Shown piece by piece: positions 1,494-29,334 of a stretch of DNA of 64,000 bases (positions are counted from its first letter, which is position 1; each line of letters starts with the position of its first letter). The stretch is from Arthrobacter sp. ERGS1:01 (lineage in GTDB: Bacteria > Actinomycetota > Actinomycetes > Actinomycetales > Micrococcaceae). Under the pieces are notes generated by a model. That model saw only the letters and a list, made by a program, of their open reading frames with translations, made no database searches and was not told the DNA's origin. The translations under genes and the position numbers were made by a program. Where the stretch lies: positions 3,348,001 to 3,412,000 of the forward strand of contig NZ_CP012479.1 in NCBI RefSeq assembly GCF_001281315.1, in the 5' to 3' direction.

Positions 1494-4400
1494 TTAAGCC
1501 CGGCGCGGGCGTCCCAGCACCAGCAGCACGAGCCCCGCCAGTACGACGCCGGCCCCGCCCACGGCGAACCAGCGGCCGGTTGCGCCGGTGCTGGCCAGGC
1601 CGTCGCCGGGTGCCGGCGTGACAGAGGCCGTGGCCATCGCCGTCACAGCGAGCGTGGGGCCGCTCGACGCCGGCACGGTTGCCGAGGCGCCCGCCGTCGA
1701 ACTCGGCACGGTTGACGGGACCGTGCTGGGGATCGCGCTGGGCGTCACGCTGGGTGCCGCCGACGTCGTCGGGCTCGCGCTTTCGCTCGGCTCGGCCGTA
1801 GGGGTCGCACTTTCCGTCGGTTCCGTCGTCGGCTCAACCACCGGAGCGCACACCACGTTGGAGCCGGGGACCTTGGCCGGCAGGGCGGAGACCACCACCC
1901 AGCGGTAGGCCTGGGTTGCGACACCGTCGGCGCCAATCGTGTTTGCCTCCACCACGTTGGGACCGGCCAGGAGCTTGAAGGTGTGTGACCCGTCGCCGTT
2001 GGCCTTCGACGGGGCGCCGTTGAAGATCACCTGGACCTTTGTGCCGGCGTCCTTGGGGGTGAAGGCTGCGCTGATCGACGTCACGGAGGGATCCGAGTAC
2101 GCCAGCCAGGCGAGCGGGGACTTGGCCGCACCAAAGTCGATCCCCTGCCACGCCGGATCTTTCAAGGCCGCCGTAAAGGCCACCGGTCCGGGGGTGACAA
2201 TGGTGGCAAAGAACGGCTGCACAGTGCCGTTGACCGTCAGCTTGCTGTAGGTGAAGGCCGTGTTGTTGTCGCTGAGCCCGCCGGTGAGCAGGCCCACCCT
2301 GGCCGTGTTGCCCACCGCGGCGTTCGTGATGGTGCCGACCGTGGTGAAGTTGCTGCCGTCCGCGGACCAGCTTCCCGTGAAGCCGGTTCCCGTGCGCTTG
2401 AGCTTGAGCCAGATGTCGGCGTTGCCCGGGTCCGCAATCTGGGTGGACTCGTCGGCGTTGCCGGCCGTCTCGGTGACGACCGCCAGAACCGGGGATCCAC
2501 CCGCATGCTTGCGCTGGAACGCCACGTAGTTGTCGTCGTCAACGTAGAACACCAGGCCCGATTCCTCGTACTGGCTCTTGGTGGCACCGCTGATCTTGAC
2601 GACCGCCTCGGTGTCGCCCGCAGCGCCGGCCTTGGTCATGAGCATGTTGGCGGCGATGTTTTGGGTGGCCCACAGCCCGTTGATGCCCGATTTGATGGAC
2701 ACGGTGTTCTTGTCGATGGCGGTCCACCGCGAGGCGTCCTCCCGGATCCAGCCCATGGCGGGGTCGAGGGTGGAGACCTGCACGCCGGTGAGGTCGATGT
2801 TGTCGGCGTTGACGCGGGCGCCGTCGCCCGTCACGGTGACCTCGCCGGCGCTCATGTTGGCCGCGGTGTTGGCGCGCATGTTGAAGCCGGGCGCGTACTT
2901 GTTGCCGGAAATGGTGATGGTGGCGCTGCCGTCGAAGGCATAGAGCGGCTTGGACGACACCGCGGCCGGGTCCACCGGCTCGGTAGGCGCGTAGTGGCTC
3001 ACCACGTTGTTGGTGAAGCGGAAGCCCGTGACGGATTTGGCGTTGACCAGCTGCCCCGATGGCAGCAGGGAGAAGCGGTTGGCGTCGACGGTGATGTTCT
3101 TGTGGACCGTCTGGCCCGGAACCGTTTCCGTGTTGAAGGGCTCCACCCAAATGGCCGCATAGTTGCTGGCGGGCCGGTCAAAGACGTTGTTCCGGATGGT
3201 GACGTCGGAGACGGCGCTGGATTCATACCAGCCCACGGCGTCGGCGGAAATGTAGATGCTGGCCATGCCCATCTGGTCGAAGTGGTTGCGTTCGATCAGC
3301 ACCTTCTTGGGCGTGGTGACCAGGATGCCGCGGGTGGGCACCGATTCGAAGGTGTTCCCGGCGATGTACACCTCCGGCGTGTACGTCATGTTTTCGGCCA
3401 CGAACGTCTCCACGGCGAGGTCGGCCGGGAGGTCCTTGTCCAGGGTGACGGTCATTTCCCGCAGGTTTCCGGTGGTGTCGGTGCCGTTGGGCCCGGTGAC
3501 CGCCGCAACCTTGTAGCTGTCGGTGCCCGCCGGGAGCATGCTGCTTCGCTTGACGAAGCGCAGCTCGTTGCCCGGATAGAACTGCGGGAAGCCGGTCGTG
3601 TCCGATTGCTCGTAGCGCAGCACGACCGTCCTGGCGGCCCTGTCGATCTTCGTCACCTGGACGTAGGTGCCGTGGATGTTGATGGGGTCATCGTGCGGGT
3701 TGTCGAAGAGCGAGTTGGTCACCTGGACCTTGCCGGCTACCCCGGACATGTGCAGGAAGTCGGCAAAGCCCACCGTCTGGCGCCAGGTGCCCGGATCGGC
3801 GAGCATCGTGATCCTGTCAAAGGAGATGTCCTTGGACAGCTGGCCCACCATGCCGAAGCCGTGCATGTAGTGCAGGGTCAGGCCCTGCAGTGCGGTGCGC
3901 TCGGATTCCCAGATGAAGACGGCGGAGGTGTCGCGCGTGTGGCGGCGGGTCTCGTAGACCTGGCCCTCCCCGCCCGGATCGGTGGCGCCGGAGTAGGTGA
4001 CGCGCATGACGTCGTTGCCCAGGTCGGTAACCGAGGTGGAGTTCACCCACAGGGGCAGGCCCGAATCCTGGCGCAGGGTCTTTCCGGTGGCCAGGTCGCG
4101 GATCTGGTTCTGCCATCCGGTGGTGTCATCGGGGGCCTGGGTCCAGTACGGCTGCCCGGTGACGGGGCTCTTTTCGCCCAGGAACGTGGCCTTTGCACCG
4201 TTGACGGTGTAGCTTGTTCCGGCCGGCAGCTTGAAGTCCCGGTAGCCCTGGCCGTTGCTGACACCCGTTTTCAGGATGGTCAGGTCCAGTACGCCCGGGG
4301 AGTACCAGTCGGTGCTGAAGTTCTCGAAGCTCACGTCCTTGGATCGGATGGACGCCATCTCGGTTTGGCTGCCGTGGTAGGTCAGCGAGGAGCCCATGCC

Positions 4401-4916
4401 GTCGACGATGACGTCGTCCATGTCTTCGATGAGGACGCCGATGTTCTTGGAGACATAGGCCGGGTTTTCGCCCACCGTGTTGGAGATGTACAGGTTCCGT
4501 TTGGGCGTGTTCTCCGGATAGACCGTGTAGCTGCCGCAGGGGAAGGCGATGGTGGTGGGGGCCTTCAGGCTCTTGGCATAGAGAATGGCGTCGTTGATCG
4601 CCTTCGCCGAATCCTTCACACCGGTGGGGTCCGCGCCAAAGTCGGTGACGTTCACAATTGTGCGTTTCGCGGCGTGGACCGGCATCGACGCCTGGTCCGG
4701 CTGCGCGGGGCTTGCGGCATGGTAGCCAACGGTTGAGGCGTTGAGGCCGACGGCGGACAGCGGCGCCGGCTCCTGATCGGCCGCATGGGCGGCGTAGGGC
4801 AGGACGCCGGTGGTCAGCACGAGGCCAACTCCAACGGCGAGCACGCCCGCCCCGAGGCGCCTGAACGTGGTACTCGACTGCCCGCCGAGGGAATGGGAAT
4901 TGCGAGTGATTGACAT
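1494..4916 (-). CDS. Secreted, wall-anchored GH110-like alpha-1,3-galactosidase (beta-helix) with LASTG signal
   Basis: This protein of 1140 residues starts with a signal peptide (RRLGAGVLAVGVGLVLTTG, then YAAHA-A). A pectate-lyase-like right-handed beta-helix follows, opening with VTDFGADPTG and containing NPHDDPINIHGTY with two Asp at about 409-410, as in GH110 exo-alpha-1,3-galactosidases that remove terminal alpha-Gal from blood-group B or linear glycans. Residues about 715-895 form a DUF1349/concanavalin-like domain. A Pro/Thr/Ser-rich linker then leads to LASTG (1107-1111), a hydrophobic helix and a GRPRRA tail, a class E sortase signal. The ATG at 4916 is preferred over the one at 4943 because it aligns with the paralog and lies downstream of the shared promoter block. 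GH110 activity is inferred from motifs; an unassigned beta-helix glycosidase is the alternative. Confidence 0.75.
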   Translation of the reverse strand: MSITRNSHSLGGQSSTTFRRLGAGVLAVGVGLVLTTGVLPYAAHAADQEPAPLSAVGLNASTVGYHAASPAQPDQASMPVHAAKRTIVNVTDFGADPTGVKDSAKAINDAILYAKSLKAPTTIAFPCGSYTVYPENTPKRNLYISNTVGENPAYVSKNIGVLIEDMDDVIVDGMGSSLTYHGSQTEMASIRSKDVSFENFSTDWYSPGVLDLTILKTGVSNGQGYRDFKLPAGTSYTVNGAKATFLGEKSPVTGQPYWTQAPDDTTGWQNQIRDLATGKTLRQDSGLPLWVNSTSVTDLGNDVMRVTYSGATDPGGEGQVYETRRHTRDTSAVFIWESERTALQGLTLHYMHGFGMVGQLSKDISFDRITMLADPGTWRQTVGFADFLHMSGVAGKVQVTNSLFDNPHDDPINIHGTYVQVTKIDRAARTVVLRYEQSDTTGFPQFYPGNELRFVKRSSMLPAGTDSYKVAAVTGPNGTDTTGNLREMTVTLDKDLPADLAVETFVAENMTYTPEVYIAGNTFESVPTRGILVTTPKKVLIERNHFDQMGMASIYISADAVGWYESSAVSDVTIRNNVFDRPASNYAAIWVEPFNTETVPGQTVHKNITVDANRFSLLPSGQLVNAKSVTGFRFTNNVVSHYAPTEPVDPAAVSSKPLYAFDGSATITISGNKYAPGFNMRANTAANMSAGEVTVTGDGARVNADNIDLTGVQVSTLDPAMGWIREDASRWTAIDKNTVSIKSGINGLWATQNIAANMLMTKAGAAGDTEAVVKISGATKSQYEESGLVFYVDDDNYVAFQRKHAGGSPVLAVVTETAGNADESTQIADPGNADIWLKLKRTGTGFTGSWSADGSNFTTVGTITNAAVGNTARVGLLTGGLSDNNTAFTYSKLTVNGTVQPFFATIVTPGPVAFTAALKDPAWQGIDFGAAKSPLAWLAYSDPSVTSISAAFTPKDAGTKVQVIFNGAPSKANGDGSHTFKLLAGPNVVEANTIGADGVATQAYRWVVVSALPAKVPGSNVVCAPVVEPTTEPTESATPTAEPSESASPTTSAAPSVTPSAIPSTVPSTVPSSTAGASATVPASSGPTLAVTAMATASVTPAPGDGLASTGATGRWFAVGGAGVVLAGLVLLVLGRPRRA

Positions 4917-4933
4917 GATTGCGATCGTAGTTA

Positions 4934-4968
4934 CCGATAACATGTGGTGTCCATCACAATGCGAATGT
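4934..4968 (-). promoter_or_regulatory. Block conserved upstream of both GH110-like genes (copy 1)
   Basis: Read on the minus strand the block contains CGCATTGTGATGGACACC followed by CACATGTTATCGG. Nearly the same bases occur upstream of the paralog at 9283-9317 (CGCAAAGTGATAGACGTC, then ATATGTC). The shared block ends about 18 bases before each preferred ATG, so it is probably a promoter or operator. No standard -35/-10 pair is clear. Confidence 0.5.
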
Positions 4969-4973
4969 TAAGT

Positions 4974-5642
4974 TCAGTGCCCTAAAGTACTTTTTTGTAA
5001 GATGCGTACAAAGTAGTCCGCGTAGCTGTCGCTCAGGGTGAGCTCGCCGGCGTCGTGCAATGCCTGCAGGGTCAGGACGTCCTCCACCGTGGGGTCGGCG
5101 AAGAACTTGCCCACCGTGATCCCGTGCGCAGGGGTGGACAGGACCGTGACGGGGTCGCCGGCGGCAAGCTTGCCGCCCTCCACCACTCGCAGGTAGCAGC
5201 CAATGCGCGCCGCCTGGGTGAACCGCTTGACCCATTGGGGCTCGCCCATGCGTTCTCCAAATGTGGCGCAGGGGACGCGCGGGGACGTGGCCTCCAGCAC
5301 CACGTCGGCACCAACCCGCCAGCGTTGGCCGATCACGGCGCCGGAGACGTCAATGCCCTGGGTACGCAGGTTTTCGCCAAAGAGTCCCGGCGGGATGTCC
5401 CGGCCCAGCTCCTTGGCCCAGTAGTCCGCGTCCTCCTGCGAGTAGGCGTACACGGCCTGGTCCGGCCCGCCGTGGTTCTTGCGGTCGGCCTGGACGTCGC
5501 CGTGCAGGCCCAGCGGGCGGACCTTGACGGGGCCGTCCACGGCGCGCTTGTCGATGGCGGTGACGCCTATGCCTGTCTTGGTGCCGTGCAATTGATGGAC
5601 ACGGCACACGGCCAGGACGGTTCCGGCGGCTGCGTTGTTCAT
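4974..5642 (-). CDS. MOSC-domain protein (YiiM-like)
   Basis: This 222-residue protein looks like a stand-alone MOSC domain of the YiiM type. These proteins are thought to carry a sulfur or molybdenum-cofactor-linked group on a conserved Cys and help detoxify N-hydroxylated compounds. Visible family features are GLHGDVQADRKNHGGPDQAVYAY near the N-terminus (given here only as landmark), GENLRTQG, and the Cys in SPRVPCATFGERMG. It sits between the two GH110-like genes on the same strand, with only 57 bases to the downstream one, but has no obvious link to glycan breakdown. The ATG at 5642 is chosen; a TTG two codons upstream is possible, and the ribosome site is weak. Confidence 0.85.
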   Translation of the reverse strand: MNNAAAGTVLAVCRVHQLHGTKTGIGVTAIDKRAVDGPVKVRPLGLHGDVQADRKNHGGPDQAVYAYSQEDADYWAKELGRDIPPGLFGENLRTQGIDVSGAVIGQRWRVGADVVLEATSPRVPCATFGERMGEPQWVKRFTQAARIGCYLRVVEGGKLAAGDPVTVLSTPAHGITVGKFFADPTVEDVLTLQALHDAGELTLSDSYADYFVRILQKSTLGH

Positions 5643-5703
5643 CCCCAAATCTACGCCAGGGCGGGTTGGGGCCGGCCCATTGGTTTTCCACCTTCCATGG
5701 CAG

Positions 5704-5746
5704 GAGGGGCGTGCGGGGTGTCATCTCGACACCCCGCACGCCCCTC
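5704..5746 (-). terminator. Perfect 19-bp stem terminator of the second GH110-like gene
   Basis: GAGGGGCGTGCGGGGTGTC (5704-5722) pairs perfectly with 5728-5746 around the loop ATCTC. It lies immediately after the stop codon at 5750. Its core TGTCATCTCGACACC matches the core of the terminator after the paralog, TGTCATCGCGACACC. Confidence 0.8.
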
Positions 5747-5749
5747 AGG

Positions 5750-8700
5750 CTAGGCCCGGCGCCTGCGGCCCATCACCAGTAGGACCAGTCCCGCCAGTAC
5801 GACGACGGCCCCGCCCACTGCCGGCCAGAGCGCGGCCCCGGTGCTTGCCAGATTGTTCTCTCCCTCCGGCATCGAGGGGGATACAGTTGCCGATGCGGTC
5901 GCGGTCGCTGCCGAGGTGGCCTTCGGTCCGGCCGTGGGCGTCATCGTCGGGTCGGCTGTCGGCGTCGCAGACACTGTCTGCTCAACCGTGGGTTCAGCCG
6001 TGGGTTCAGCCGTGGGTTCAACGGTTGGCTCCGTCGTCGGCTTGATTGTCGGGTTGGTCGTCGGGTCAACGCTCGGCGTTGCCGTCATGGTCGGATCAAC
6101 TGTCGGCTCGGTTGTGGGCTCGGCTGTCGGTTCCGGCGTCGCTGTCGGCTCAACCGTCGGTTCCGGCGTCGGCTCGACCACCGGCGCACACACCACGTTG
6201 GACCCGGGTGCCTTGGCCGGCAACGCCGACACAATCACCCAACGGTAAGTTTGCGAGGAAACGCCGTCCGCGCCCAGGGTTTGTACCTGGACAACGTTGG
6301 GGCCGGACATCAGATCAAAGGCGTAACTGCCATCGGCGGCCGGTTCCATGCGGACATCATTGAACTGCACCTGGAGTTTTGTCCCGGCATCGCCCGGCTT
6401 GAACCTGGCCGATACCGTGGCGGTTGCCGCATCGGTGTTGGCCATCCAGGCCAGGGGTGAGACCGGTGCAGCAAACTGCACACCCGACCATGTGGGTGCG
6501 TCAATCGCGGCCAGCAGCGTGGCCGGTGCCGGTTCCACCACGGTGCCGAAGAAGGGCTGCGCGACACCCTTGACCGTCAGTGCGCTGAAGTTGAATGCGG
6601 TGTCGCCCGTGCTGGTGCCGGCGGCAAGGACGCCCACGCGACCGTTGTTGCCGACGGCGGCGTTGGTAATCGACCCAATGACGGTGAAGGCGGTGCCGTC
6701 CGTCGAGTAGCTTGCCGTGTAGGCGTTCCCGGTCCGCGAGATCTTCAGCCACACATCCGCCGCAGGGGGCGCGGCCACCTGGGTGTTTTCATTGGGTTGG
6801 CCGGCCGCTTCCGTGACCAGGGCAAGTACGGGCGAGCCGTTGGCGTGCTTGCGTTCCAGGGCCACGTAGTTGTCGTCGTCGGCATAGAGGATCAGCCCGG
6901 CCTCCTCGTACTGGGACTTGGTGGCGCCGCTGAGCTTGACGACGGCGTCCGTGTCGCCGACCGCTGGGACGTCCTGGCGCAGGATGTTCACGGCCGCGTT
7001 TTGGGTGGCCCACAATCCGTTGACACCGGCCTTGAGCGTGACGGTGTCCTTGTTGACCGCGGCCCAGCGGCTCGGATCCTCACGAACCCATCCCATTCCG
7101 GCAGCCAGCGTTGACTTGGGCACGTTGACGGCGGTGACGTTGTCCGCATTGGTGAGGACGCCGTCGCCGGCACCGTCGACCTCGGCGGCGGCCATGGCCG
7201 AGGTATTGGCCCGCAGGTTGAAACCGGGCTCATAGCTGTTGCCGGAAATGAGGACCCCGCTGCTGCCGCTAAAGGAGAAGAGCGGCTTGGACGACGTCAC
7301 GCTGACGGGCGCCGTTGGTGAGTAATGGTTGACCGCGTTGGCGGTGAACTCGAGTCCGGACACCGACTTTGCGCTCACCAGCTGCCCGCCGGAGAGGAGC
7401 GAGAACCTGTTGGCTTCGATGGAGATGTCGTGGTGGACAGCCTTGCCGTCCTCGTTTTGGCTGTTGGTGGGGTCGACAAAGATTGTCGCGGACCCCGTGG
7501 CCGGGCGGTCAAAGACGTTGTTGCGAATCTTCACGTCCTCCACCCCGCCGGACTCGTACCAGGATGCGGCATCCGCGGAAATGTAGATGCTGGCCATGCC
7601 CATTTGGTCGAAGATGTTCCGCTCGATGAGCACCGGCTTGGGAGTGGTCACCAGGATGCCGCGGGTCGGCACGGACTGGAAGGTATTGCCGGCCACGTAG
7701 ACCTCGGGTGTGTACGTCAGGTTTTCGGCCACGAACTGGCTCACCGCAAGGTTCGCCGGCAGGTCACCATCCACCGTGACGGTCATCTGGGTCAGGCTGT
7801 GGGATGAATCCGTGCCACTGGGGCCATCGACGCTGACCACCTTGAACGTGGCGGCACCTTCGGGAAGCATGGTGGCCTTCTTGACGAAACGGAGCTCGTC
7901 ACCGGGGTAGAACTGCGGGAAGCCGGCCGTCTCGTTGTGCATGTACTGCAGGGTGACGGTGCGGGCGGCCCTGTCCAGCGCCTTGACCTCCACATAGGTG
8001 CCGTGGATGTTGATGGGGTCGTCGTGCGGGTTGTCGAACAGCGAGTTGGTGATCTGCACCTTCCCGGCCACACCCGACATTTGGACGAAGTCGGCAAAGG
8101 AGGCGGTCTGCCGGTCGGTGCCGGGGTCCGTGCGCAACGTGATCTTGTCCATGGAGATGTCGTGGCTGAACTGGCCAACGATGCCAAAGCCGTGCAAGTA
8201 GTGCATTTTCATGTTGCTCAGTGCTGTCCGCGTGGATTCCCAGATGAAGCTGCCGGGGGTGTCGCGCGTAGTTTTCCGCATTTCATAGACCTTGCCCGCA
8301 CCGCCCGGGTCGGTGGCGGCGGTGTAGCTGACCCGCAGCACTCCCCCGCCGAGGTCGGCAACGGCGCTTGAACCGGTCCACAGGGGCAGTCCGGAGCGCA
8401 GGGTCAGCCCGCTGGCGAGGTCGCGGATCTGGTTTTGTCCGGCACTTGCGCCGGACGGGGCGTGCGTCCAATACGGCTGGCCCGTGACGGGGCTGGTTTC
8501 TCCGGTAAACGTGGCGCTTGCCCCGGAGATTGCGTAGTTCACCCCTGCCGGAACCTTGATGTCGCGGTAGCCGTGGCCGCCCGCAACCCCGCTCGTCAGG
8601 ACCGTGAGGTCCAGGGTGCCGGGCGCGTACCAATCGGTGTCCAGGTTTTGGACCGTGACGTCCGAGGATCGGATGGCGGCGATTTGGGTCTGGTTGCCGT

Positions 8701-9265
8701 GGAAGGTCAGCGCGGAGCCCATCCCGTCGACAATCACGTCGTGCATGTCCTCGAGCAGCAAGCCTATTGATTTGTTCGCATAGGCCTGGTCTGCGCCGAC
8801 CGTGTTGGAGACATAGAGTTCGCGTTGGGGCGCGGCCTCGGGGTACATCGAGTAGCTGCCGCAGGGGAAGACGATGGTGGCGGGCTTCTTCAGGCTCTTG
8901 GCGTAGAGGATGGCGTCATTGACAGCCTTGGCGGAGTCCTTCCTGCCCGTGGGGTCGGCACCAAAGTCGGTGACCTTGACGATGGCCCGCTCCTTGGCGT
9001 GCACGGGCAATGCCGATTGGTCCTGGACGGCCGGCTGGTCCGCGTGAAAGCCGACATTCTGTGCGCTCAGGCCCTTTGCGGGCATCAATGGTCCCGGAGT
9101 CCATGCCCCGGCCAGGGGCGCCTGGTCCGCGGCATGCGCCTGGACGGGTGCGGTTCCCCCTACGAGGACCACTCCCATGCCAAGCGCCAGGAACCCGGCG
9201 CCCCAACGCCGGAGTTTTGTCTCGGGTGCCGCACATCGCGGCGAAGCGTTCGCTGTTGGTGTCAT
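5750..9265 (-). CDS. Second secreted GH110-like alpha-1,3-galactosidase (beta-helix) with LASTG signal
   Basis: This 1171-residue paralog of the 1494-4916 protein has the same order: signal peptide (RRWGAGFLALGMGVVLVGG, then QAHA-A), beta-helix starting VTDFGADPTG, the NPHDDPINIHGTYVEV motif with Asp 415-416, a DUF1349-like domain, a repeat-rich Pro/Thr/Glu linker, LASTG at 1139-1143, a membrane helix and MGRRRRA. It should act outside the cell, fixed to the wall by a sortase. The linker is longer than in the paralog and contains a 12-base tandem unit coding EPTA. Possible starts are TTG 9286, GTG 9271 and ATG 9265; I use the ATG because it lies downstream of the shared upstream block and leaves a normal signal peptide. 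It is the first gene of a run with MOSC and GH110 copy 1 on one strand. Confidence 0.75.
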   Translation of the reverse strand: MTPTANASPRCAAPETKLRRWGAGFLALGMGVVLVGGTAPVQAHAADQAPLAGAWTPGPLMPAKGLSAQNVGFHADQPAVQDQSALPVHAKERAIVKVTDFGADPTGRKDSAKAVNDAILYAKSLKKPATIVFPCGSYSMYPEAAPQRELYVSNTVGADQAYANKSIGLLLEDMHDVIVDGMGSALTFHGNQTQIAAIRSSDVTVQNLDTDWYAPGTLDLTVLTSGVAGGHGYRDIKVPAGVNYAISGASATFTGETSPVTGQPYWTHAPSGASAGQNQIRDLASGLTLRSGLPLWTGSSAVADLGGGVLRVSYTAATDPGGAGKVYEMRKTTRDTPGSFIWESTRTALSNMKMHYLHGFGIVGQFSHDISMDKITLRTDPGTDRQTASFADFVQMSGVAGKVQITNSLFDNPHDDPINIHGTYVEVKALDRAARTVTLQYMHNETAGFPQFYPGDELRFVKKATMLPEGAATFKVVSVDGPSGTDSSHSLTQMTVTVDGDLPANLAVSQFVAENLTYTPEVYVAGNTFQSVPTRGILVTTPKPVLIERNIFDQMGMASIYISADAASWYESGGVEDVKIRNNVFDRPATGSATIFVDPTNSQNEDGKAVHHDISIEANRFSLLSGGQLVSAKSVSGLEFTANAVNHYSPTAPVSVTSSKPLFSFSGSSGVLISGNSYEPGFNLRANTSAMAAAEVDGAGDGVLTNADNVTAVNVPKSTLAAGMGWVREDPSRWAAVNKDTVTLKAGVNGLWATQNAAVNILRQDVPAVGDTDAVVKLSGATKSQYEEAGLILYADDDNYVALERKHANGSPVLALVTEAAGQPNENTQVAAPPAADVWLKISRTGNAYTASYSTDGTAFTVIGSITNAAVGNNGRVGVLAAGTSTGDTAFNFSALTVKGVAQPFFGTVVEPAPATLLAAIDAPTWSGVQFAAPVSPLAWMANTDAATATVSARFKPGDAGTKLQVQFNDVRMEPAADGSYAFDLMSGPNVVQVQTLGADGVSSQTYRWVIVSALPAKAPGSNVVCAPVVEPTPEPTVEPTATPEPTAEPTTEPTVDPTMTATPSVDPTTNPTIKPTTEPTVEPTAEPTAEPTVEQTVSATPTADPTMTPTAGPKATSAATATASATVSPSMPEGENNLASTGAALWPAVGGAVVVLAGLVLLVMGRRRRA

Positions 9266-9282
9266 TTGCACATGGTATTGAG

Positions 9283-9317
9283 CCAAGACATATGACGTCT
9301 ATCACTTTGCGTAAATG
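9283..9317 (-). promoter_or_regulatory. Block conserved upstream of both GH110-like genes (copy 2)
   Basis: Copy 2 of the block described at 4934-4968. On the minus strand it reads ACGCAAAGTGATAGACGTC and then ATATGTCTTGG. The sequence AGACGTCATATGTCT inside it is an imperfect palindrome, which would suit a dimeric regulator. Confidence 0.5.
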
Positions 9318-9512
9318 CTTCGATTGTTACTTTTTGAAATCTATTGTTGAAGTATTTTCAACCGACCGCGATCCGGTCCCGGCAATGCCCAAGAAATTTG
9401 AAGTTTGGGGGCGAATCCAGCATGCGGTTCGCTTCGGCACTTCAGTAAAATCAACCACCACCTCGATCAGACATCACACCTTTAATGCTGCGTCCACACG
9501 ACATGCAGCGGC

Positions 9513-10151
9513 TCAGTACGCCACGCCCACTCCGTGCCCGAAGCTCGCCTTGTCCCCCACCATGGCGAGCATGGCATGGGCAACGTCGCCGCGGCTGATC
9601 TTCCGGCCACCGCGCAGGTTGGCGTCAATGGCGGTGCGGTAGACGCCCGTCGTCGGCGTATTCAACAGTTGCGGCGGCCGCACCGCGGTCCAGTCCAGCC
9701 CGCTCGCGGCGAGGTCGGCCTCCATGAGGCGCAGATCGACGTAGTTTTCCTTGAAGATCTGCTCGATGATCGGGGTGATGACCGTCCGCAGCAGGAATGG
9801 CTGCCCTTCCGGCACCGGGCCCAGCGGCGAGGCGCTGACCACCAGGAGCCTGCGCACGCCGGCCAACTCCATGGCTTCGCGGATGGTCCGGGTGACCGGC
9901 GCCGTGCTGCCCGCCAGCTTGCGGCTGCGCGGGCCGACGGCGGAAAGCACCGCATCGCGTCCGGCCACGGCATCCTCGAGCTCCTCGGGGTTGTCGAGCG
10001 TGGCGACCTCGACAATCTCCAGGCGCTCCCCCGTCACAGGCAGCCGCGAGCGGTCCCGGACCACCGCCGTCACATCGTGTCCGCCGGTCAGCGCGTGCCG
10101 CACAATTTCCTGCCCGACCCCGCCGCTTGCACCAAAAACCGTCAGTCTCAT
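9513..10151 (-). CDS. NAD(P)-binding Rossmann protein, NmrA/atypical SDR type
   Basis: The 212-residue protein starts with a nucleotide-binding loop (VFGASGGVGQEIV) and continues as a compact atypical short-chain dehydrogenase of the NAD(P)H-binding class: DAVLSAVGP, RRLLVVSASPLG and a C-terminal LDWTAVRPPQL segment. Such proteins act as NAD(P)H-dependent reductases or redox sensors; the substrate cannot be read from the sequence. A GAGG-type ribosome site (GGGAGAG) precedes the ATG. It stands alone on the minus strand, with 217 repeat-rich bases upstream. Confidence 0.85.
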   Translation of the reverse strand: MRLTVFGASGGVGQEIVRHALTGGHDVTAVVRDRSRLPVTGERLEIVEVATLDNPEELEDAVAGRDAVLSAVGPRSRKLAGSTAPVTRTIREAMELAGVRRLLVVSASPLGPVPEGQPFLLRTVITPIIEQIFKENYVDLRLMEADLAASGLDWTAVRPPQLLNTPTTGVYRTAIDANLRGGRKISRGDVAHAMLAMVGDKASFGHGVGVAY

Positions 10152-10368: not shown

Positions 10369-11835
10369 TTAGGCGGAGATGGACTCTTCCGCGTCCAGGA
10401 CGTCGGCCTCGGAGGCCCAGCGGGGCAGGAAGCTGGCGGCGATCGCAGCCAGCACCATCCCGCCGGCCATCAGCCACATGGTGGAGGTGAATCCGTCAAT
10501 GAACACCCCGGACTGGCTGTGCGCCGTGCTGGATTCGATCCCGTTGAAGAACAGCGTGCCAACGATCGCCACGCCCAGGGCTCCGGAGAGCTGGCTGGTG
10601 GTGTTGAACAGGCCCGAGGCCGCGCCGGCAAACTTCACCGGCACCTCGGAGAGCACGAAGATGCCCACGGGCGCCACGACCATGCCGAAGCCGGCACCGC
10701 TCAACGCCAGGCCCGCGATCAGGTGCCACGGGGTGACCCCGCCGCCGTTGGCCTGGACGGTGAAGATCAGCACCACGAAGCCGATCGCGATGACCAGCGG
10801 ACCCAGCTGCAGCACCACGCGGCCGATCTTCTTGGCCAGGATGGCCGCGGACAGGCCGGCCAGGATCGGGACCATGACCGAGAACGGGATCATGGTCAGG
10901 CCGGCCTTCAGGATCGGGTACTGCAGACCGAGCTGCAGGAACAGGGTCTGGATCAGGAAGAAGCCGTTCATGGGGATGAAGAACAGGAACATCATGACGA
11001 TGCCGGCCGCGAAGGAGCGGCTCTTGAACAAGGACACCGGTACCAGCGGCTCGCCGCCGTGCTTCTCCTCGCGGTGCTGCAACAGCACAAAACCGACCAG
11101 TACCAGGAGGCCGAACCCCATCATCAGGAATGTCCACAGTGGCCAGCCGTCCTCGCGGCCCATGGTCAGCGGGTACAGGATGGAGAGCATGCCGACGGCC
11201 AGGACCACGACGCCGGAGAGGTCAAGTTTGTGCCGGACGGGCGCGAAGGATTCGGGCACGAACTTCATGGCGCAGATGACCGCGAAGATGCCGACCGGGA
11301 CGTTGACGAAGAAGATGGTGCGCCAGCCCCAGCCGAACAGGTTGGAGTCGGTCAGGATGGCGCCGAGGATGGGGCCCGACACGGCGGCCACACCGGCCAG
11401 TGCGGAGAAACCGGCCATGGCGCCGGCACGTTCCTTCGGCTTGTACATGACCTGCACGCTGGAGAGCACCTGCGGGATCATCGACGCGGACGCGAAGCCC
11501 TGCAGCGCGCGGGAGGCGATCAGCATCTCCGGGTTCTGGGCCAGGCCGCACAGCACCGAGGACACCGTGAAGACCACCAGGCCGATGATGAACATCTTCT
11601 TGCGCCCGTAGATGTCACCCAGCCGGGAGCCGGTGATCAGGCCGATGGCCAGCGCCAGCGTGTAGGAGGCCACCATCCACTGGAGTTCGGCGTTGTGGGC
11701 GTCGAGGGACCGTTCAATGTCGGGGAGCGCGACGTTGACGATCGTGGCGTCCAACAACTCCATGAAGGATGCCAGGAACAAGGAGATGAGGGCTATGGAG
11801 CGGGCCCTGCCGATGGGTGGTGCCGTGGTTTTCAT
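10369..11835 (-). CDS. MFS drug exporter, DHA2 (EmrB/QacA) family
   Basis: A 488-residue inner-membrane transporter predicted to have 14 helices, exporting hydrophobic drugs or toxins with protons. MELLDATIVNVALPDI in helix 1, the GSRLGDIYGRKKMF loop (motif A) and RALQGFASASMIP are typical of DHA2 members. The ATG at 11835 is preceded by AAGGATCACCA, a good ribosome site; longer readings upstream are non-coding. The PadR gene lies 95 bases upstream on the same strand and is the likely regulator. The gap holds a copy of a dispersed repeat (11884-11926). Confidence 0.92.
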   Translation of the reverse strand: MKTTAPPIGRARSIALISLFLASFMELLDATIVNVALPDIERSLDAHNAELQWMVASYTLALAIGLITGSRLGDIYGRKKMFIIGLVVFTVSSVLCGLAQNPEMLIASRALQGFASASMIPQVLSSVQVMYKPKERAGAMAGFSALAGVAAVSGPILGAILTDSNLFGWGWRTIFFVNVPVGIFAVICAMKFVPESFAPVRHKLDLSGVVVLAVGMLSILYPLTMGREDGWPLWTFLMMGFGLLVLVGFVLLQHREEKHGGEPLVPVSLFKSRSFAAGIVMMFLFFIPMNGFFLIQTLFLQLGLQYPILKAGLTMIPFSVMVPILAGLSAAILAKKIGRVVLQLGPLVIAIGFVVLIFTVQANGGGVTPWHLIAGLALSGAGFGMVVAPVGIFVLSEVPVKFAGAASGLFNTTSQLSGALGVAIVGTLFFNGIESSTAHSQSGVFIDGFTSTMWLMAGGMVLAAIAASFLPRWASEADVLDAEESISA

Positions 11836-11883
11836 TGGTGATCCTTGAATAGTGGTGAGGCAAAGTGTGTGGGGCGGGTCATT

Positions 11884-11926
11884 GAGCTTGGCGAAATCCC
11901 GGGTCTCGACAAGCTCGACCACCGGG
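11884..11926. repeat. Dispersed repeat with GTCTCGACAAGCTCGACC core (copy 1)
   Basis: A 43-base stretch, GAGCTTGGCGAAATCC then GGGTCTCGACAAGCTCG and ACCACCGG, is closely repeated at 57793-57835. GAGCTTG at its left pairs with CAAGCTC inside the core. It lies between padR and the exporter gene. Confidence 0.65.
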
Positions 11927-11930
11927 GCAG

Positions 11931-12533
11931 TTACGGGTGGGGTTCGTGGGTTTGGGACAGCAGGGTCAGGGATTCCCGGCTCCAGGTCACGGCCCCCGAG
12001 CGAAGGTCGGCCAGGAGGTTGTCGAGGAAGGCAACTTCCGTGGCGCGGGTTTGCAGGATCAGTTCCGTGTCCAGCAGCACCACCCGCGGCAGGAAGCCCT
12101 CCACGGCCGCCAGACCGTTGCGCAGCTCGTCCACCTCGGCGGCAACCAGGCCGCGGCGCGTTTCGAGCAGTTCCGCCAGCGATTCGGGAGTCAGCATGGG
12201 CGCGTGCGCCAACGCCGCGTAGAAGTCCGGGAAGCTGCGCCTCGGCACGGACAGCATGTCGGTCAGCCAACCGTAGGCGGTGGCGCGCCCGTCGTCGGTG
12301 ATTTCGTAGACGTTGCGTTCGGGCCGCTGCCCGTCGCGTTCGGTCTCCGCCACCCGGACCAGGCCCTCCCGGGTGAGCCTGTCGATGGTGCTGTACAGGC
12401 TGGCCCGCTGGCTGACGTTGATGACCTTGTCCTTGCCGCGCGAGGTAATGAGCTGCTGCATACGGTAGGGGTGCATGGGCGCCTCCTCCAGCAGGGAGAG
12501 CACGGCAAGGGCCAGCGGGGAACGTTTGGACAT
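11931..12533 (-). CDS. PadR-family transcriptional regulator
   Basis: This 200-residue repressor has an N-terminal winged helix (SPLALAVLSLLEEAPMHPYRMQQL, then the wing VINVSQRASLYSTIDRL) and a C-terminal helical PadR dimerisation part. It most likely controls the DHA2 exporter downstream on the same strand. ATG codons at 12533 and 12539 are both possible. The start overlaps an AT-rich inverted element (TAGT, nine bases, ACTA, 12533-12549) that could be its own operator, so the message may be leaderless. Confidence 0.88.
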   Translation of the reverse strand: MSKRSPLALAVLSLLEEAPMHPYRMQQLITSRGKDKVINVSQRASLYSTIDRLTREGLVRVAETERDGQRPERNVYEITDDGRATAYGWLTDMLSVPRRSFPDFYAALAHAPMLTPESLAELLETRRGLVAAEVDELRNGLAAVEGFLPRVVLLDTELILQTRATEVAFLDNLLADLRSGAVTWSRESLTLLSQTHEPHP

Positions 12534-22860: not shown

Positions 22861-23983
<1,123 letters not shown>

Positions 23984-24454: not shown

Positions 24455-24484
24455 GCCGCCAGCCTGCCACGCCTCCGCGGTTGA

Positions 24485-24502: not shown

Positions 24503-24551
24503 TGTTTCACTGGAGCACACCACTCACCGGGCACCACCCCAAGGAGCTTCC

Positions 24552-24773
24552 ATGACCGCCGCACAGTTGTCCCGCAGGACCCGATCCGAAGCGCCGACCC
24601 AGCTTGCACCAACCCCGGCCGCCGCGGCCTCCGGCGCCAATCGGGGCCATGAAAACGTGCCCGCCCACCCCACGCAACGGGAGCGCCGTCGTCGTCGGCA
24701 ATCCCCGGACCGCCCGCTTCCGCACGAATCGATGTCGCTGCTCTGGGCCGGTCATCTCACCGGCCCGCGCTAA
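24552..24773 (+). other. Doubtful 73-codon reading frame after the SoxR box
   Basis: An ATG with a good ribosome site (AAGGAGCTTCC) opens 73 codons with an Arg/Pro/Ala-rich, protein-unlike composition (for example RERRRRRQSPDRPLP). Another frame here reads GSAVVVGNPRTARFRTNRC, weakly like the start of an NAD(P)H-dependent FMN reductase. A decayed SoxR target gene is possible. The region could also be only the leader of the next gene. Confidence 0.25.
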
Positions 24774-24803
24774 GCTCTCCACCAACCAGCCAAAAGGAAT
24801 TCC

Positions 24804-25619
24804 ATGACCATCTGGACGTGCGCCACGTGCGCGATCGAACACCCAGACACCCCCACACCGCCGCAGATCTGCGAAATATGCGCCGACGAACGCCAATTCA
24901 TCCCGCCCGGCGGGCAGCGCTGGACCACCCGCGACGAACTCGCCGGCCAGGGCTTACGCACCGTCGTGACCGAGCTGGAGTCGGGGCTGCACGCCGTGGA
25001 AACGGTTCCCGAGCTGGGCATCGGCCAACGCGGCCTGCTCCTCCAGACAAACCACGGAAACGTGTTGTGGGAGCCGCCGGGATTCATTGACGACGACGGC
25101 GTGGCGAAGGTGCGCGCGCTGGGCGGCATCGCGGCGGTCACCGCCAGCCACCCCCACCTGACGGGATCCTCGATCCAATGGAGCCACGCGTTTGGCCGGG
25201 TGCCCGTGTACGTGGCGGCGGCAGACCAGCAATGGATTCGCCGGCCGGACCCCGTCATCCGGCTTTGGCAGGACCGGCAGGAATTGTTGCCGGGCGTGCC
25301 CGTGTACCAGTGCGGCGGGCACTTCGCGGGCAGCAGCGTGCTGCACTGGCCGGCGGGTGCGGGCGGCCGGGGCGCCCTGCTCACGGGCGACACGATCGCC
25401 GTTGGGGGTGACCGGACGTCGGTCAACGCCATGCGCAGCTACGTCAACAACATTCCGCTGCCCAAAAAGGCCATCCTGCGCATCCTGGACGTCACGGAAC
25501 CGCTGCCCTTCGAGAGGATCTACGGCGCCTTCCGCATCCTCGACGCCGGCGCCAAGGAGATCACCGCCCGCTCGCTTCGGCGGTACATGGACTGGCTGGA
25601 CGGCACGCCGGAGGAATAG
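24804..25619 (+). CDS. Metallo-beta-lactamase-fold hydrolase with N-terminal zinc-ribbon-like Cys pairs
   Basis: The 271-residue protein begins with two Cys pairs (WTCATCAIEH and QICEICADE) that look like a small rubredoxin or zinc ribbon. The rest follows a metallo-beta-lactamase pattern: GNVLWEPPGFID, ASHPHLTGSS (in place of HxHxDH), GGHFAGSSVLHWP, GALLTGDTI. The usual HxHxDH motif is degenerate (SHPHLTG), so metal binding may differ. It follows the SoxR box on the same strand and is the best candidate SoxR target. Substrate unknown. Confidence 0.75.
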   Translation: MTIWTCATCAIEHPDTPTPPQICEICADERQFIPPGGQRWTTRDELAGQGLRTVVTELESGLHAVETVPELGIGQRGLLLQTNHGNVLWEPPGFIDDDGVAKVRALGGIAAVTASHPHLTGSSIQWSHAFGRVPVYVAAADQQWIRRPDPVIRLWQDRQELLPGVPVYQCGGHFAGSSVLHWPAGAGGRGALLTGDTIAVGGDRTSVNAMRSYVNNIPLPKKAILRILDVTEPLPFERIYGAFRILDAGAKEITARSLRRYMDWLDGTPEE

Positions 25620-25690
25620 CGGCAAGAGGCCCGTCATCTTGGGCGCGCGCGGCCACGGCTGTGCCATGATGTGATCCATAACATAAGCCC

Positions 25691-25724
25691 GGCGCCGCGC
25701 TCCTTCCCCACGGGGTGCGGCGCC
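25691..25724. promoter_or_regulatory. GC-rich hairpin in the GH89 gene leader
   Basis: GGCGCCGC at 25691-25698 pairs with GCGGCGCC at 25717-25724, about 22 bases before the GH89 start. It could be a terminator for the preceding gene or an attenuator in the GH89 leader. Confidence 0.45.
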
Positions 25725-25746
25725 GCCCATCCTAAGGATCCAGCCC

Positions 25747-28700
25747 ATGCCTTCGCCCTGGCGCCGCTATCTGCGTTTAAGCGCGGCCACCGCTTCCCTT
25801 GCCATCGCCGCCGCACTGTTGTGCCCGGTTTCCCCCGCCGGGGCACAGCAGGCGCAGGCGCTGCCCGCCGCGGCAAGCATTGGTGCCGGCGCCGAACCGG
25901 CCGCGGCCGTGCTGGCAAGGCTGGCCGGCGCCGACGCCGCCAAGTTTGACCTGGCCCTCATGGCTAAGGACAACAGCCAGGACACGTACAAGGTCACCGC
26001 GTCCGGCGGCCGGGTGAGCATCACCGGTTCCACCCCGGCCACCATCCTGGCCGGCTTCAACGCCTACGTGGGCCAGGTGCTGCACCAGTCCACGTCCTGG
26101 AACGGCAGCTCGCTGAAGCTGCCGGCAACCCTGCCGGCCACAGCCCCCATCCAGGCCACGGCGAATGTGGCGCACCGCTTCGTCAACAACGACGTCGAGG
26201 ACGGCTACACGGGTGCGTACCGTTCCCTGGAGCAGTGGAAGGACATGATTGACACGTTCGCCCTGCACGGCTTGAACGAGGTCTTCATGCCCGTGGGTAC
26301 CGAGGCCGTCTACCTGGACGTGCTCAAGCAGTTTGGCTACACCCAGTCCGAGATTCTGGCCTGGACCCCACAATCCGCGCACCAGCCGTGGTGGCTGCTG
26401 CAAAACATGTCCGGCGATCCCCACCCCATCACCATGAACACCGTCAACGAGCGGGCAAAGCTTGGCCGCGACATTGCCGACTACCTGCGCTCCCTCGGCA
26501 TGGTCCCGGTGCTCCCTGGTTACTTTGGCACCGTCCCGGCCGGCTTCAAGGACAAGAACCCGGGAGCCGCCGTCGTACCGCAGGGCGGCTGGGTGGGCGG
26601 CTACACCCGCCCAGACTGGCTGGATCCGAACAACGCGCTCTACCCGCAGCTCGCCAAGGCGTTCTACGACGCGTCCACGGCCCGGCTGGGCGCCTCCTCG
26701 ATGTACAAGATGGACCTGCTCCACGAAGGTGGCACGGCCGGATCCGTCAACGTTTCCCAGGCCACGAAGTCCGTGGAAAATGCGCTGCAAACCGCCCACA
26801 AGGACGCCCTCTGGGTGCTTTTGGGCTGGCAGAGCAACCCGCCGCAGGCAGTCGTGGCGGCCGCCAACCCGGCCACCACGTTCATCGTTGACGGGCTCTC
26901 GGACCGTTATACGGGCCAAAACCGCGAGGCCACCTGGAAGGGCATCCCGTACGCCTTTGGCACCATCTGGAACTTTGGCGGCCACACCACCATGGGCTCG
27001 CAGATCTCCGTGCAGAACCAGCGCTACTACGAATGGCTGAACAAGCCCGGCAGCGCCATGAAGGGCCTGGCCATCATCCCCGAGGGCGGAGACAACAACC
27101 CCGCCGCCTTTGACTTCTTCGCCGGACTGGCCTGGCGCAACGCCCCGGCCAACCTGACCAATTGGTTTGCCGACTTTGCCCAGCGCCGCTATGGGGTGGC
27201 CGATCCCAACGCGGCCGCCGCCTGGGACGTGCTGCGGCAAACCGCCTACGATCTGCCCAGCGACGACGGCTGGAGCGAGGCCGCCGACGGCCTGTTCGGC
27301 GCCCAACCGTCGCTGACCGTCAAGACGGCCGCGGCCTGGTCGCCGCAGGAGCAGCGCTACGACATGGACACGTTCGCCGCCGCGCTGCCCAAGCTGCTGG
27401 CCGCGAGCGCCGCCGTCAAAGCCACCGAGACGTACAAGTACGACCTCATGGACGTCTCCCGGCAGGTGCTCTCCAACCTCTCCCGGACCATGCTGCCGAA
27501 GATCAAGGCCGCATACGACGCCGGTGACACCGAAAGTTTTGCGAGCCTGCGCACCATGTGGCTGGACACCATGGACCTGATGGACAAGATCGCCGGCACC
27601 AATTCCTCCCAGCTGCTGGGCAATTGGCTCAAGCAGGCGGCGGATTCGACCACCGTCGCCGCGGACAAGGCGGCCCTGGAGGCGGACCAGCGCTCCATCA
27701 TCACCCTGTGGTCACCCACGTTGTCCGACCTCAACGACTACGCCAACCGCGAGTGGAACGGCCTGGTGGGCGGCTACTACAAGGCCCGCTGGAGCGCGTA
27801 CTTTGATTCGCTCGAGCAAAAGATGGCCGGCACCGGGCCGGGCACCGCCCCCAACTGGGGTGCCATGGGGGCCGCGTTCGTCAACGGCACCGCCGGTTAT
27901 GAACCCGCCGGCGGCTACCCGACCACGGCCAGCGGTGACATCAACGCCCTGGCAGGGACCGCCGTCGCCCGTTACACCGAGGCCACGGCCTTCACGCCCA
28001 AGCCGCAGCCGCTGCCGGCCCCTCCAGGCAACGGCGTGACGTACCTGTCCGAGCTGCCGTTCGTCTCCGACGAGCACGACGAGACGCTGGGCGCCACGGG
28101 CCGCAACACCGCCATTGGCGACGCCGGCACCAAGGTTCGCGACAAGATCACCCTCGACGGCGTGGAGTACGCGAAGGGGCTCGGCGTGAACTCGCCGTCC
28201 ACGATCGTGTTCAATCTGGCCGGGCAGTGCACCAGCTTCACGGCCGTGGCCGGCATTGACGCCACGATGGATAAGCCGGGCAAGGCCCCGAACGTGATTT
28301 TCAATGTGCTCGGCGACGGCAAGACGCTGTACACCTCGGGCGCCTTCACCGCGGGCACGGGTACGGTGGCGCAAAAGCCGCTGGCCGTGTCGGTGGACGT
28401 GACGGGCGTGGACCTGCTGACCCTGAACGTGGATCCGAACGGCGTGAACTGGTTTGACCGCGCCGACTGGGCCGATGCCCGGGTGGGCTGTGGCGGCGAC
28501 GAGCCCGCGCCGGCCGCACCGGGTGACGGCGTGACCCAGTTGTCGCAGCTGCCGTTCCTGCACACCGACTACCTGCCGGAGTTCGGCGAGATTGCCCGCG
28601 ACACCGAAATTGGCGACGCCGCCACTCGGGTCCGCAACCCCATCAACGTGGGCGGCACCAGCTATGCGACAGGCCTCGGGGTGCAGGCACCCACCACGAT

Positions 28701-29334
28701 CGACTTCAATGTGAGCGCCCGCTGTACCGTTTTCCAGGCCATGGTGGGCATTGACGCCACCATGGATCAGCCCGGCAAGACCCCGTCCGTGACGTTCATT
28801 GTGCTGGGCGATGGAAAGGAACTGTACAACAGCGGCGAGCTCACCGGCGGCGCACCCACGCCGGTCTCGGTCCCGCTGACGGGCGTGAAGACACTCACCC
28901 TGAAGGTGTCCGAGGGCGACGTCAACTGGTTCGACCGCGCCGACTGGGCCAACGCCCGCGTCACCTGCGCCGACCCCGTCGTTGCTCCCACGGAGACGGC
29001 GACACCCACCGAAACGGCGACGCCGAGCCCGTCTGCAACCGCCGGACCCACGGCAACGGTCACGGCCAGCGCGAGCGCATCGCCGACAGCCACGGCTACG
29101 GAAACCTCGGCTCCCGTCCAGACCACGGCAACGGCAACGGCAAGCGCCGGCGGCGAAAAGAGCGCAGCCGCCTCGAGCACAAGCCCGGCGAGCAGCCCCA
29201 CCACAACGCCTTCGGCCGGCGGGCTGGCAAGCACCGGCCCCTCGGGCCTGGCCCCGATCATGGCGTTGGGCGTATTGGTCCTGGCGGGAGGGCTGGCACT
29301 GACGGCGAACCGGCGTCGTTCCCGCCACAACTAA
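25747..29334 (+). CDS. Secreted, wall-anchored GH89-like alpha-N-acetylglucosaminidase with two CBM51 modules and LASTG
   Basis: A 1195-residue enzyme. The signal peptide ends near AGAQQAQA. The catalytic part has GH89 (NAGLU) landmarks: HGLNEVFMPVGTEAVYLDVL, LGMVPVLPGYFGTVP, MDLLHEGG with candidate catalytic Glu327, WNFGGHTTMG, and IIPEGGDNN with candidate Glu446. GH89 removes terminal alpha-GlcNAc, for example from gastric-type mucin. Two NPCBM/CBM51 modules (about 762-917 and 925-1077; both contain GVxxPT/ST and NWFDRADWA) may bind Gal- or GalNAc-containing glycans. A Thr/Ala/Ser-rich linker leads to LASTG (1160-1164), a membrane helix and RRRSRHN, a class E sortase signal. ATG is preceded by AAGGATCC. 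No transporter or regulator is adjacent. Confidence 0.85.
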   Translation: MPSPWRRYLRLSAATASLAIAAALLCPVSPAGAQQAQALPAAASIGAGAEPAAAVLARLAGADAAKFDLALMAKDNSQDTYKVTASGGRVSITGSTPATILAGFNAYVGQVLHQSTSWNGSSLKLPATLPATAPIQATANVAHRFVNNDVEDGYTGAYRSLEQWKDMIDTFALHGLNEVFMPVGTEAVYLDVLKQFGYTQSEILAWTPQSAHQPWWLLQNMSGDPHPITMNTVNERAKLGRDIADYLRSLGMVPVLPGYFGTVPAGFKDKNPGAAVVPQGGWVGGYTRPDWLDPNNALYPQLAKAFYDASTARLGASSMYKMDLLHEGGTAGSVNVSQATKSVENALQTAHKDALWVLLGWQSNPPQAVVAAANPATTFIVDGLSDRYTGQNREATWKGIPYAFGTIWNFGGHTTMGSQISVQNQRYYEWLNKPGSAMKGLAIIPEGGDNNPAAFDFFAGLAWRNAPANLTNWFADFAQRRYGVADPNAAAAWDVLRQTAYDLPSDDGWSEAADGLFGAQPSLTVKTAAAWSPQEQRYDMDTFAAALPKLLAASAAVKATETYKYDLMDVSRQVLSNLSRTMLPKIKAAYDAGDTESFASLRTMWLDTMDLMDKIAGTNSSQLLGNWLKQAADSTTVAADKAALEADQRSIITLWSPTLSDLNDYANREWNGLVGGYYKARWSAYFDSLEQKMAGTGPGTAPNWGAMGAAFVNGTAGYEPAGGYPTTASGDINALAGTAVARYTEATAFTPKPQPLPAPPGNGVTYLSELPFVSDEHDETLGATGRNTAIGDAGTKVRDKITLDGVEYAKGLGVNSPSTIVFNLAGQCTSFTAVAGIDATMDKPGKAPNVIFNVLGDGKTLYTSGAFTAGTGTVAQKPLAVSVDVTGVDLLTLNVDPNGVNWFDRADWADARVGCGGDEPAPAAPGDGVTQLSQLPFLHTDYLPEFGEIARDTEIGDAATRVRNPINVGGTSYATGLGVQAPTTIDFNVSARCTVFQAMVGIDATMDQPGKTPSVTFIVLGDGKELYNSGELTGGAPTPVSVPLTGVKTLTLKVSEGDVNWFDRADWANARVTCADPVVAPTETATPTETATPSPSATAGPTATVTASASASPTATATETSAPVQTTATATASAGGEKSAAASSTSPASSPTTTPSAGGLASTGPSGLAPIMALGVLVLAGGLALTANRRRSRHN

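Follow-up and report, generated by a model that had tools for sequence, protein, structure and literature searches.

Three glycosidases in one window

We consider here a window of 64,000 nucleotides (the whole stretch of DNA that was analysed) from the genome of Arthrobacter sp. ERGS1:01, and within it three large proteins with the features of wall-anchored glycosidases: two alpha-1,3-galactosidases of family GH110 and one alpha-N-acetylglucosaminidase of family GH89 that carries two CBM51 modules. Coordinates are positions within the window; other loci are given by contig (C1, C3) of the same genome. The three open reading frames (ORFs) were confirmed at 1494-4943 on the minus strand (P0001, 1149 aa), 5750-9286 on the minus strand (P0002, 1178 aa, TTG start) and 25747-29334 on the plus strand (P0003, 1195 aa), with GC contents at third codon positions of 0.89, 0.82 and 0.88, respectively. 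An earlier note on this DNA had described two GH110-like enzymes and a GH89-like enzyme with two CBM51 modules, all ending in LASTG, a helix and arginines. The assignment is borne out by alignments to PDB entries and by NAGLU and NPCBM domain matches, and the tail is present on all three, a motif that supports wall anchoring.

The GH110 proteins are 61% identical to each other. In copy 1 (1494..4943) the catalytic beta-helix covers about residues 91-690 (2874..4673, from the alignment to 7jw4), a concanavalin-A-like DUF1349/GH43_C2 module matched by Pfam covers about residues 732-903 (2235..2750), and the LASTG-helix-Arg sorting signal residues 1116-1149 (1497..1598). The corresponding parts of copy 2 (5750..9286), likewise on the minus strand, are a catalytic region with conserved aspartates at about residues 98-690 (7217..8995, from PDB alignment), a DUF1349/GH43_C2 module at about residues 733-906 (6569..7090, a Pfam match) and a LASTG signal at residues 1146-1178 (5753..5851). 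The DUF1349/GH43_C2 module of both proteins was absent from the earlier note's account. Because the database entry for copy 2 (P0004, 1171 aa) begins at an ATG seven codons downstream of the TTG, its coding sequence is likely to be 5750-9265, with the ATG start at 9265.

The closest solved structures for both copies are 8yk1-3, entered as ‘Alpha-galactosidase’ (E 3.6e-137 for copy 1 and 3.4e-141 for copy 2 against 8yk1), followed by 9i4f, 8pvs, 7jw4 and 9beh. The alignments to solved enzymes span about 560-620 residues, that is, the whole beta-helix domain. Placement of the pair in GH110 by profile was divided: with the Pfam GLAA-B barrel II model (cut-off 28 bits) copy 2 passes at 32.3 and copy 1 falls below at 24.2, the third GH110 of the genome, described below, scoring 25.8. 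At the level of sequence, it is the PDB alignments that settle the GH110 identity of the pair. Generic Pfam beta-helix and pectate-lyase matches are weak compared with these alignments, and the proteins were rejected as pectinases.

Residues D395, D418 and D419 of copy 1 align with D321, D344 and D345 of PdGH110B (alignment to 7jw4), and the equivalent D399, D422 and D423 of copy 2 are conserved in all 60 aligned sequences, a set that here and below includes the genome's own three. In PdGH110B, D344 is the likely acid, and D321 and/or D345 activate water (PMC7939477). In the region near the +1 subsite the window enzymes read PTRG, as do 8yk1 and GLAA_PETGR, and 7jw4 and 9i4f read RARG; PTR is found there in 57 of the 60 sequences. 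A carrageenan-type GH110 identity was rejected for the pair on account of the PTRG motif that it shares with 8yk1 and GLAA_PETGR; the latter stands among the listed GH110 relatives at 49% identity over 99% of the domain. The specificities described for GH110 are B-restricted, B-plus-linear and linear-only (PMC7939477), and a review has the GH110 of Bifidobacterium bifidum acting on blood group B (PMC7232152). The window pair is predicted to be active on the B antigen. GLAA_PETGR and AgaBb are both B-restricted.

In a FastTree tree of the 60 catalytic domains, rooted by choice on a Clostridium protein, the pair is placed with Arthrobacter, Pseudactinotalea and other sequences, and recent transfer from gut bacteria is unsupported as its origin. 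It should be noted that support at some Arthrobacter nodes is low (0.29, 0.16) and that the placement of Clostridium and Romboutsia is uninformative given the chosen root.

The GH89 protein (25747..29334, plus strand) has NAGLU N, TIM-barrel and C domains over residues 51-720 (25897..27906), all above cut-off (E 5.7e-18, 2.7e-87 and 4.5e-67). They are followed by two modules of the NPCBM type, which we equate with CBM51, at 28036..28485 and 28534..28965 (118.3 and 117.6 bits against a cut-off of 23.9; a Pfam scan gives the second in two stretches), and by a LASTG signal at residues 1160-1195 (29224..29331). Its best PDB match is 2vc9 (E 6.7e-95, over residues 65-744). At the positions of E327 and E446 the alignment places two glutamates of 2vc9; in 4a4a, presumably a catalytic double mutant, these two are glutamine. 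Both residues are invariant across 17 sequences, P0003 included. The catalytic residues whose absence the earlier note had regarded as fatal to its assignment, the Asp triad of the GH110 pair and both glutamates of the GH89, are all present.

Directly upstream of the GH89 gene, at 24804-25619, lies a 271-aa protein without a Pfam match, kept beside GH89 in the related genome G016 (75% identity). Most genes within 1494..29334 are unrelated to the glycan theme, namely Kdp genes and genes for MFS, MOSC, SDR, amidohydrolase and MerR proteins; the MFS protein at 10369-12270 passes a drug-efflux model. No NCBIfam model matched the three glycosidases at E <= 0.001.

Sortases and the anchored set of the genome

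Each of the three proteins begins with a hydrophobic N-terminal segment and ends with LASTG, a hydrophobic stretch and arginines. N-terminal signals were judged throughout by a crude hydropathy test and anchors by motif, with no signal-peptide predictor behind either. So judged, the proteins fit the layout of class E sortase substrates: a signal-like N-terminus, LAxTG, a hydrophobic helix and a basic tail. LAXTG is the recognition motif of class E sortases (PMC5148588). The genome has four sortase domains, and the three examined are a class E (NF033747, E 3.6e-73, 245.9 bits against a cut-off of 160), a class C (above cut-off) and a class-F-like enzyme (164.7 against 166 bits).

At least 22 proteins of the genome, the window's three included, carry LAxTG or LPxTG tails, a non-exhaustive tally and thus a lower bound; 14 of them belong to glycan-enzyme families: GH110 (two), GH89, GH20 (three), GH33, GH33 fused to GH20, GH84, GH29, GH95, GH101, GH59 and a GH31 of the alpha-GalNAcase type. 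A pilin-like LPFTG protein that adjoins the class C sortase (L059) stands outside the tally. A hydrophobic segment lies within the first 100 residues of 20 of the 21 anchored proteins tested, the exception being an anchored F5/8/NEW3 ORF (L054:4669-8381), which lacks a signal-like N-terminus, overlaps a second upstream ORF and is possibly a misread or broken gene.

Of the 20 rows given by a search of the genome with P0002, four belong to the three GH110 genes; the others are the GH89 gene and 15 further loci. Fourteen of these 15 have an LAxTG tail, and at the remaining one (C3:477 kb) the overlapping ORF has none. Seven of the 14 tailed loci carry glycan enzymes (three GH20, GH33, GH33+GH20, GH84 and GH29); the other seven encode a GDSL+ricin protein, a beta-helix protein with CBM4_9, a VWA protein, Ig-like repeats, a nucleotidase-type protein, an F5/8 protein and the ORF at C3:272 kb. 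Searches with NPCBM and F5/8 added the anchored GH101, GH59, GH31, GH95 and an F5/8+ricin protein, together with one non-anchored GH95. Such searches select glycan-binding proteins by design, so that the share of 14 in 22 is biased and seven in 14 is the fairer figure.

Several of these enzymes can be placed more closely. The GH31 scores 412 bits against 6m76 and 408-410 against 7f7q/7f7r, named as GH31 alpha-N-acetylgalactosaminidase, the next GH31 group following at 165. There are three sialidase-like (BNR) genes; the two compared with the PDB match the sialidase 1eut at 358 and 476 bits, and the third is supported by Pfam alone. The GH101 aligns with the EngBF and SpGH101 entries and keeps one Asp and one Glu that we take to be the catalytic positions. 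The GH59 matches galactocerebrosidase at 349 bits, and the anchored GH95 matches several GH95 entries, the fucosidase FucOB among them. A set known from mucin degraders (GH33, GH29/GH95, GH20, GH84, GH89, GH101 and GH110) is found together here, with signal-like N-termini and tails.

Other anchored proteins are of interest in their own right. At C3:3831712-3837231 (L051:5713-11232) an 1839-aa wall-anchored protein fuses a GH33 sialidase, F5/8 and GH20, and may be compared with the bifunctional GH33+GH123 SiaBb3 of B. bifidum (PMC12856340). The wall-anchored galactocerebrosidase-like GH59 at C3:1305234-1309217 (L089:7234-11217) has two NPCBM modules. A 1692-aa wall-anchored protein of the nuclease/5'-nucleotidase type at C1:549767-554845 (L050:5768-10846) suggests surface scavenging of nucleotides as well, and a 622-aa LASTG-tailed ORF at C3:271537-273405 (L056:3538-5406) has no Pfam match.

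We consider it probable that the window's three enzymes are exo-acting cap removers within a genome-wide system, displayed by a class E sortase, for scavenging host glycans. The natural substrate of the enzymes is something we infer from sequence. The host-glycan theme of the earlier note is strengthened by the anchored GH101, GH33, GH84, GH20, GH29, GH95 and alpha-GalNAcase-type GH31.

It might be argued instead that the proteins serve display or adhesion: their binding modules would keep the cell on glycan surfaces, and hydrolysis would come second. Anchors with NPCBM, F5/8 and ricin-type modules do recur across the suite, and class E sortase is required for mucin adhesion by B. bifidum; single disruptions of four anchored proteins and a pilin, on the other hand, left that adhesion unchanged (PMC8603203). 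The catalytic residues here are intact and conserved, and the candidate uptake and catabolic loci described below fit released sugars. A primary role in adhesion seems very improbable beside scavenging.

Candidate uptake loci and distribution in relatives

The third GH110 lies at C3:613-629 kb in a locus that also encodes a PF19543 protein, an FGE-sulfatase-domain protein, two ABC permeases, a putative binding protein (so labelled from its lipoprotein-like start and its position), a LacI-type regulator, a Gfo/Idh protein and a GH95. This GH110 has neither a signal-like N-terminus nor an anchor and adjoins the ABC importer; the GH95 of the locus also lacks a signal-like N-terminus. Thirteen close relatives of this GH110 were checked (P0011-P0024 minus itself), and by the same crude test all of them lack a signal-like N-terminus. 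In the related genomes G021 and G011 the PF19543, GH110, permease, putative binding-protein and Gfo/Idh genes are conserved, the GH110 counterparts being 71% and 75% identical, respectively. G011 also has the GH95 (69%), which was not found in the stretch of G021; the LacI gene is matched in G021 and would fall between the two G011 stretches compared. The PF19543 (GH123_N) protein, conserved beside the third GH110, has 1024 aa and no signal-like N-terminus (C3:613034-616108; L057:5035-8109).

Two further loci are candidates for catabolism. At C3:637-648 kb the GH101 gene runs divergently from genes for SIS, ROK, PfkB, class II aldolase and DeoR proteins, a gene order from which a GalNAc/tagatose operon is probable; the order is the same in G021 and, for the part compared, in G016. 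A single run at C1 about 504-513 kb contains the gene for NanE, which scores above cut-off, and those for a ROK kinase, a protein of the DHDPS family, an Opp-type ABC transporter and a family-5 binding protein. The NanE model alone also matches in eight of 14 control genomes. The earlier note had remarked on the lack of nearby transporters; this holds locally, where the MFS protein passes a drug-efflux model, but misleads for the genome as a whole, given the ABC importer by the third GH110 and the Opp-type genes of the Nan-like run.

Among the 23 genomes of the genus, GH101 occurs in 16 and GH110 (counted at E <= 1e-60) in six, one with an internal TGA; at G009:C2:96973-98829 a GH110-like match is interrupted by one in-frame TGA. 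In the family sample of 295 genomes GH101 occurs in 36, those 16 included, and hence in 20 of the 272 outside the genus; GH89 is found in three of the 295, two within the genus. Genome G016 shares the order of the window, from the gene at 33075 through GH89 (78%), Kdp, MFS and MOSC to GH110 copy 1 (73.6%), and the gene at 29452 was not called in the shared neighbourhood. In this otherwise collinear genome GH110 copy 2 and an NAD(P)-binding gene (window 5750-10151, between MOSC and MFS) were not called there; its best match to copy 2 is on another contig.

These data bear on the idea that the enzymes form no system and are accessory exo-glycosidases without relation to one another, dispersed by gene transfer and chance. 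The suite is spread over two contigs and GH110 and GH89 are patchy in the genus, as that idea would have it. A single anchor type nevertheless runs across 14 glycan-enzyme proteins, the GH89-GH110 neighbourhood is kept in G016, and the GH110-importer and GH101-aldolase loci are conserved, so that we give hardly any credence to chance scatter.

The listings of relatives comprise the best 120 hits of 447 for GH110, of 888 for GH89 and of 572 for GH101. Most of the named relatives in these listings are Actinobacteria from genera known as environmental; some members of Clostridium/Romboutsia also appear for GH110, and some of the Bacillales for GH89. The earlier note's view that such proteins belong mostly to gut bacteria is not supported as worded. 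An environmental polymer with the same caps might then be the main target and the host-glycan look coincidental; such polymers would be bacterial capsules or O-antigens with B-like ends, alpha-galactosides of fungi, algae or plants, and the alpha-GlcNAc of teichoic acids. That explanation stays because the families are common in Actinobacteria of environmental genera; A. glacialis and A. alpinus, whose names hint at the cold, are also among the relatives. PdGH110B, moreover, acts on linear Gal-alpha-1,3-Gal and belongs to a lambda-carrageenan context (PMC7939477). Against it are the PTRG of the +1-subsite region, in place of the RARG of 7jw4 and 9i4f, and a genome with an anchored GH101, two anchored GH33 proteins, an alpha-GalNAcase-type GH31 and NanE. 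The earlier note had itself proposed an unrecognised polymer with the same caps, and the GH101, the three sialidase-like genes and NanE make this less likely; we regard an environmental polymer as main target as unlikely.

Proposed pathway and comparison with known systems

Host-glycan scavenging at the wall would proceed as follows. The anchored proteins would be secreted and then joined to the wall by the class E sortase SrtE. At the cell surface GH110 would take alpha-1,3-galactose off mucin-type O-glycans or blood-group glycans, its most likely target being Gal-alpha-1,3(Fuc-alpha-1,2)Gal, the B determinant, and GH89 would take off terminal alpha-GlcNAc, with CBM51 holding the enzyme to its target. 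Wall-bound GH33, GH95/GH29, GH20, GH84, GH101 and GH31 could open the remaining glycan, and the cell would take up sialic acid, GalNAc and small oligosaccharides, partly via the ABC importers. The signal-less GH110 and the GH95 encoded by the importer may trim incoming oligosaccharides, and the Nan-like and GalNAc/tagatose-like enzymes would pass the sugars to central metabolism.

A number of observations weigh against this scheme. Removal of alpha-Gal and alpha-GlcNAc caps is an accessory ability, because GH110 is confined to six of the 23 genus genomes and GH89 to three of the 295 of the family, and the GH110, GH89 and GH101 families are widespread, among the listed hits, in Actinobacteria of genera known as environmental. 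For the putative binding protein next to the GH110 importer there was no model match. The SIS, ROK and PfkB proteins pass no NCBIfam cut-off; the aldolase does, as a ketose-bisphosphate aldolase. The putative sialic-acid lyase of the DHDPS family scores 145 bits with DapA against 103 and 95 with the NanA models, all below cut-off; since DapA comes out ahead, the lyase label is a weak one. In the Nan-like run, the family-5 binding protein extends over two ORFs that overlap (C1:511369-512993; L118:17369-18993), either a broken gene or a sequence error. A GH112 search of the genome gave no match, although the controls were equally silent, and GH20 and GH84 may serve chitin or wall turnover. As to anchoring, the motif is found in six of 19 signal-bearing GH110 relatives (P0005-P0044, some of which may be fragments), none was seen when the GH101 of G021 was examined for it, and GLAA_PETGR too fails the crude signal test. 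Taken together, the observation made in the earlier note is confirmed, and its interpretation is partly supported and enlarged.

A more specific proposal, which we put forward tentatively and as rather less likely than not, is that an environmental lineage of the Arthrobacter type has a two-compartment pathway for blood-group-B/O-glycans, with GH110 and GH89 of the wall acting outside and imported branched, fucosylated alpha-galactosyl oligosaccharides being cut by the cytosolic GH110 and GH95. If this were true, such bacteria would be unrecognised consumers of the glycans of animal mucus, droppings and carcasses. Breakdown of mucin and blood-group glycans is best known from gut bacteria, and the wall-displayed suite with its candidate uptake loci suggests either contact with animals that has gone unnoticed or an outlet for animal glycans in the environment. 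The suite also makes it testable where the bifidobacterial display system came from, and its enzymes widen the pool of alpha-1,3-galactosidases, alpha-GlcNAcases and alpha-GalNAcases. GH110 enzymes are reported to be under study for blood-group conversion.

The Arthrobacter system resembles, and shares defining parts with, the class-E-sortase glycosidase set of B. bifidum, although we do not claim identity. That organism has 26 putative sortase-dependent proteins, mostly glycoside hydrolases, and a class E sortase; both sets come from an actinobacterium and consist of large multidomain hydrolases with tails of the [L/I/V][S/A]xTG type (PMC8603203). The families overlap in GH110 and GH89 (PMC7232152) and in GH33, GH29, GH95, GH20, GH101, GH89 and GH84 (PMC9120202). 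The differences are an Arthrobacter-like lineage, tails that are mostly LASTG, an alpha-GalNAcase-type GH31 and a twin-NPCBM GH59 that go unmentioned for B. bifidum in the literature compared, and a duplicated anchored GH110 accompanied by a third GH110 without signal or anchor. The structure 8yk1 is, we believe, AgaBb of B. bifidum.

Single enzymes have their own counterparts. GLAA_PETGR, the alpha-1,3-galactosidase A of Peterkaempfera (Streptomyces) griseoplana, shares the Asp triad and the PTRG motif with the window GH110s, but is a protein of 727 aa with no listed DUF1349 and no visible anchor, whereas those of the window have 1149-1178 aa and both. Both catalytic glutamates of 2vc9, presumably CpGH89 of Clostridium perfringens, align with the window GH89, which unlike it is followed by two NPCBM modules and a LASTG anchor. 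The structure 1eut, which we take to be the NedA sialidase of Micromonospora viridifaciens, is matched at 476 bits by a GH33 of the genome, in an alignment that takes in the catalytic, linker and galactose-binding domains; in contrast to 1eut, GH33 carries a wall anchor in this genome and occurs in one protein as a fusion with GH20. Judged by title and the opening of the abstract, none of the open-licence papers listed by the searches describes an anchored suite of this kind in Arthrobacter. Mucin-type hydrolase sets have been reported in Streptomyces and Actinomadura genomes (PMC9120202), and these reduce the novelty of the suite. The single enzymes are ordinary members of known families; what is new is their anchored assembly and the arrangement of GH110 both inside and outside the cell.

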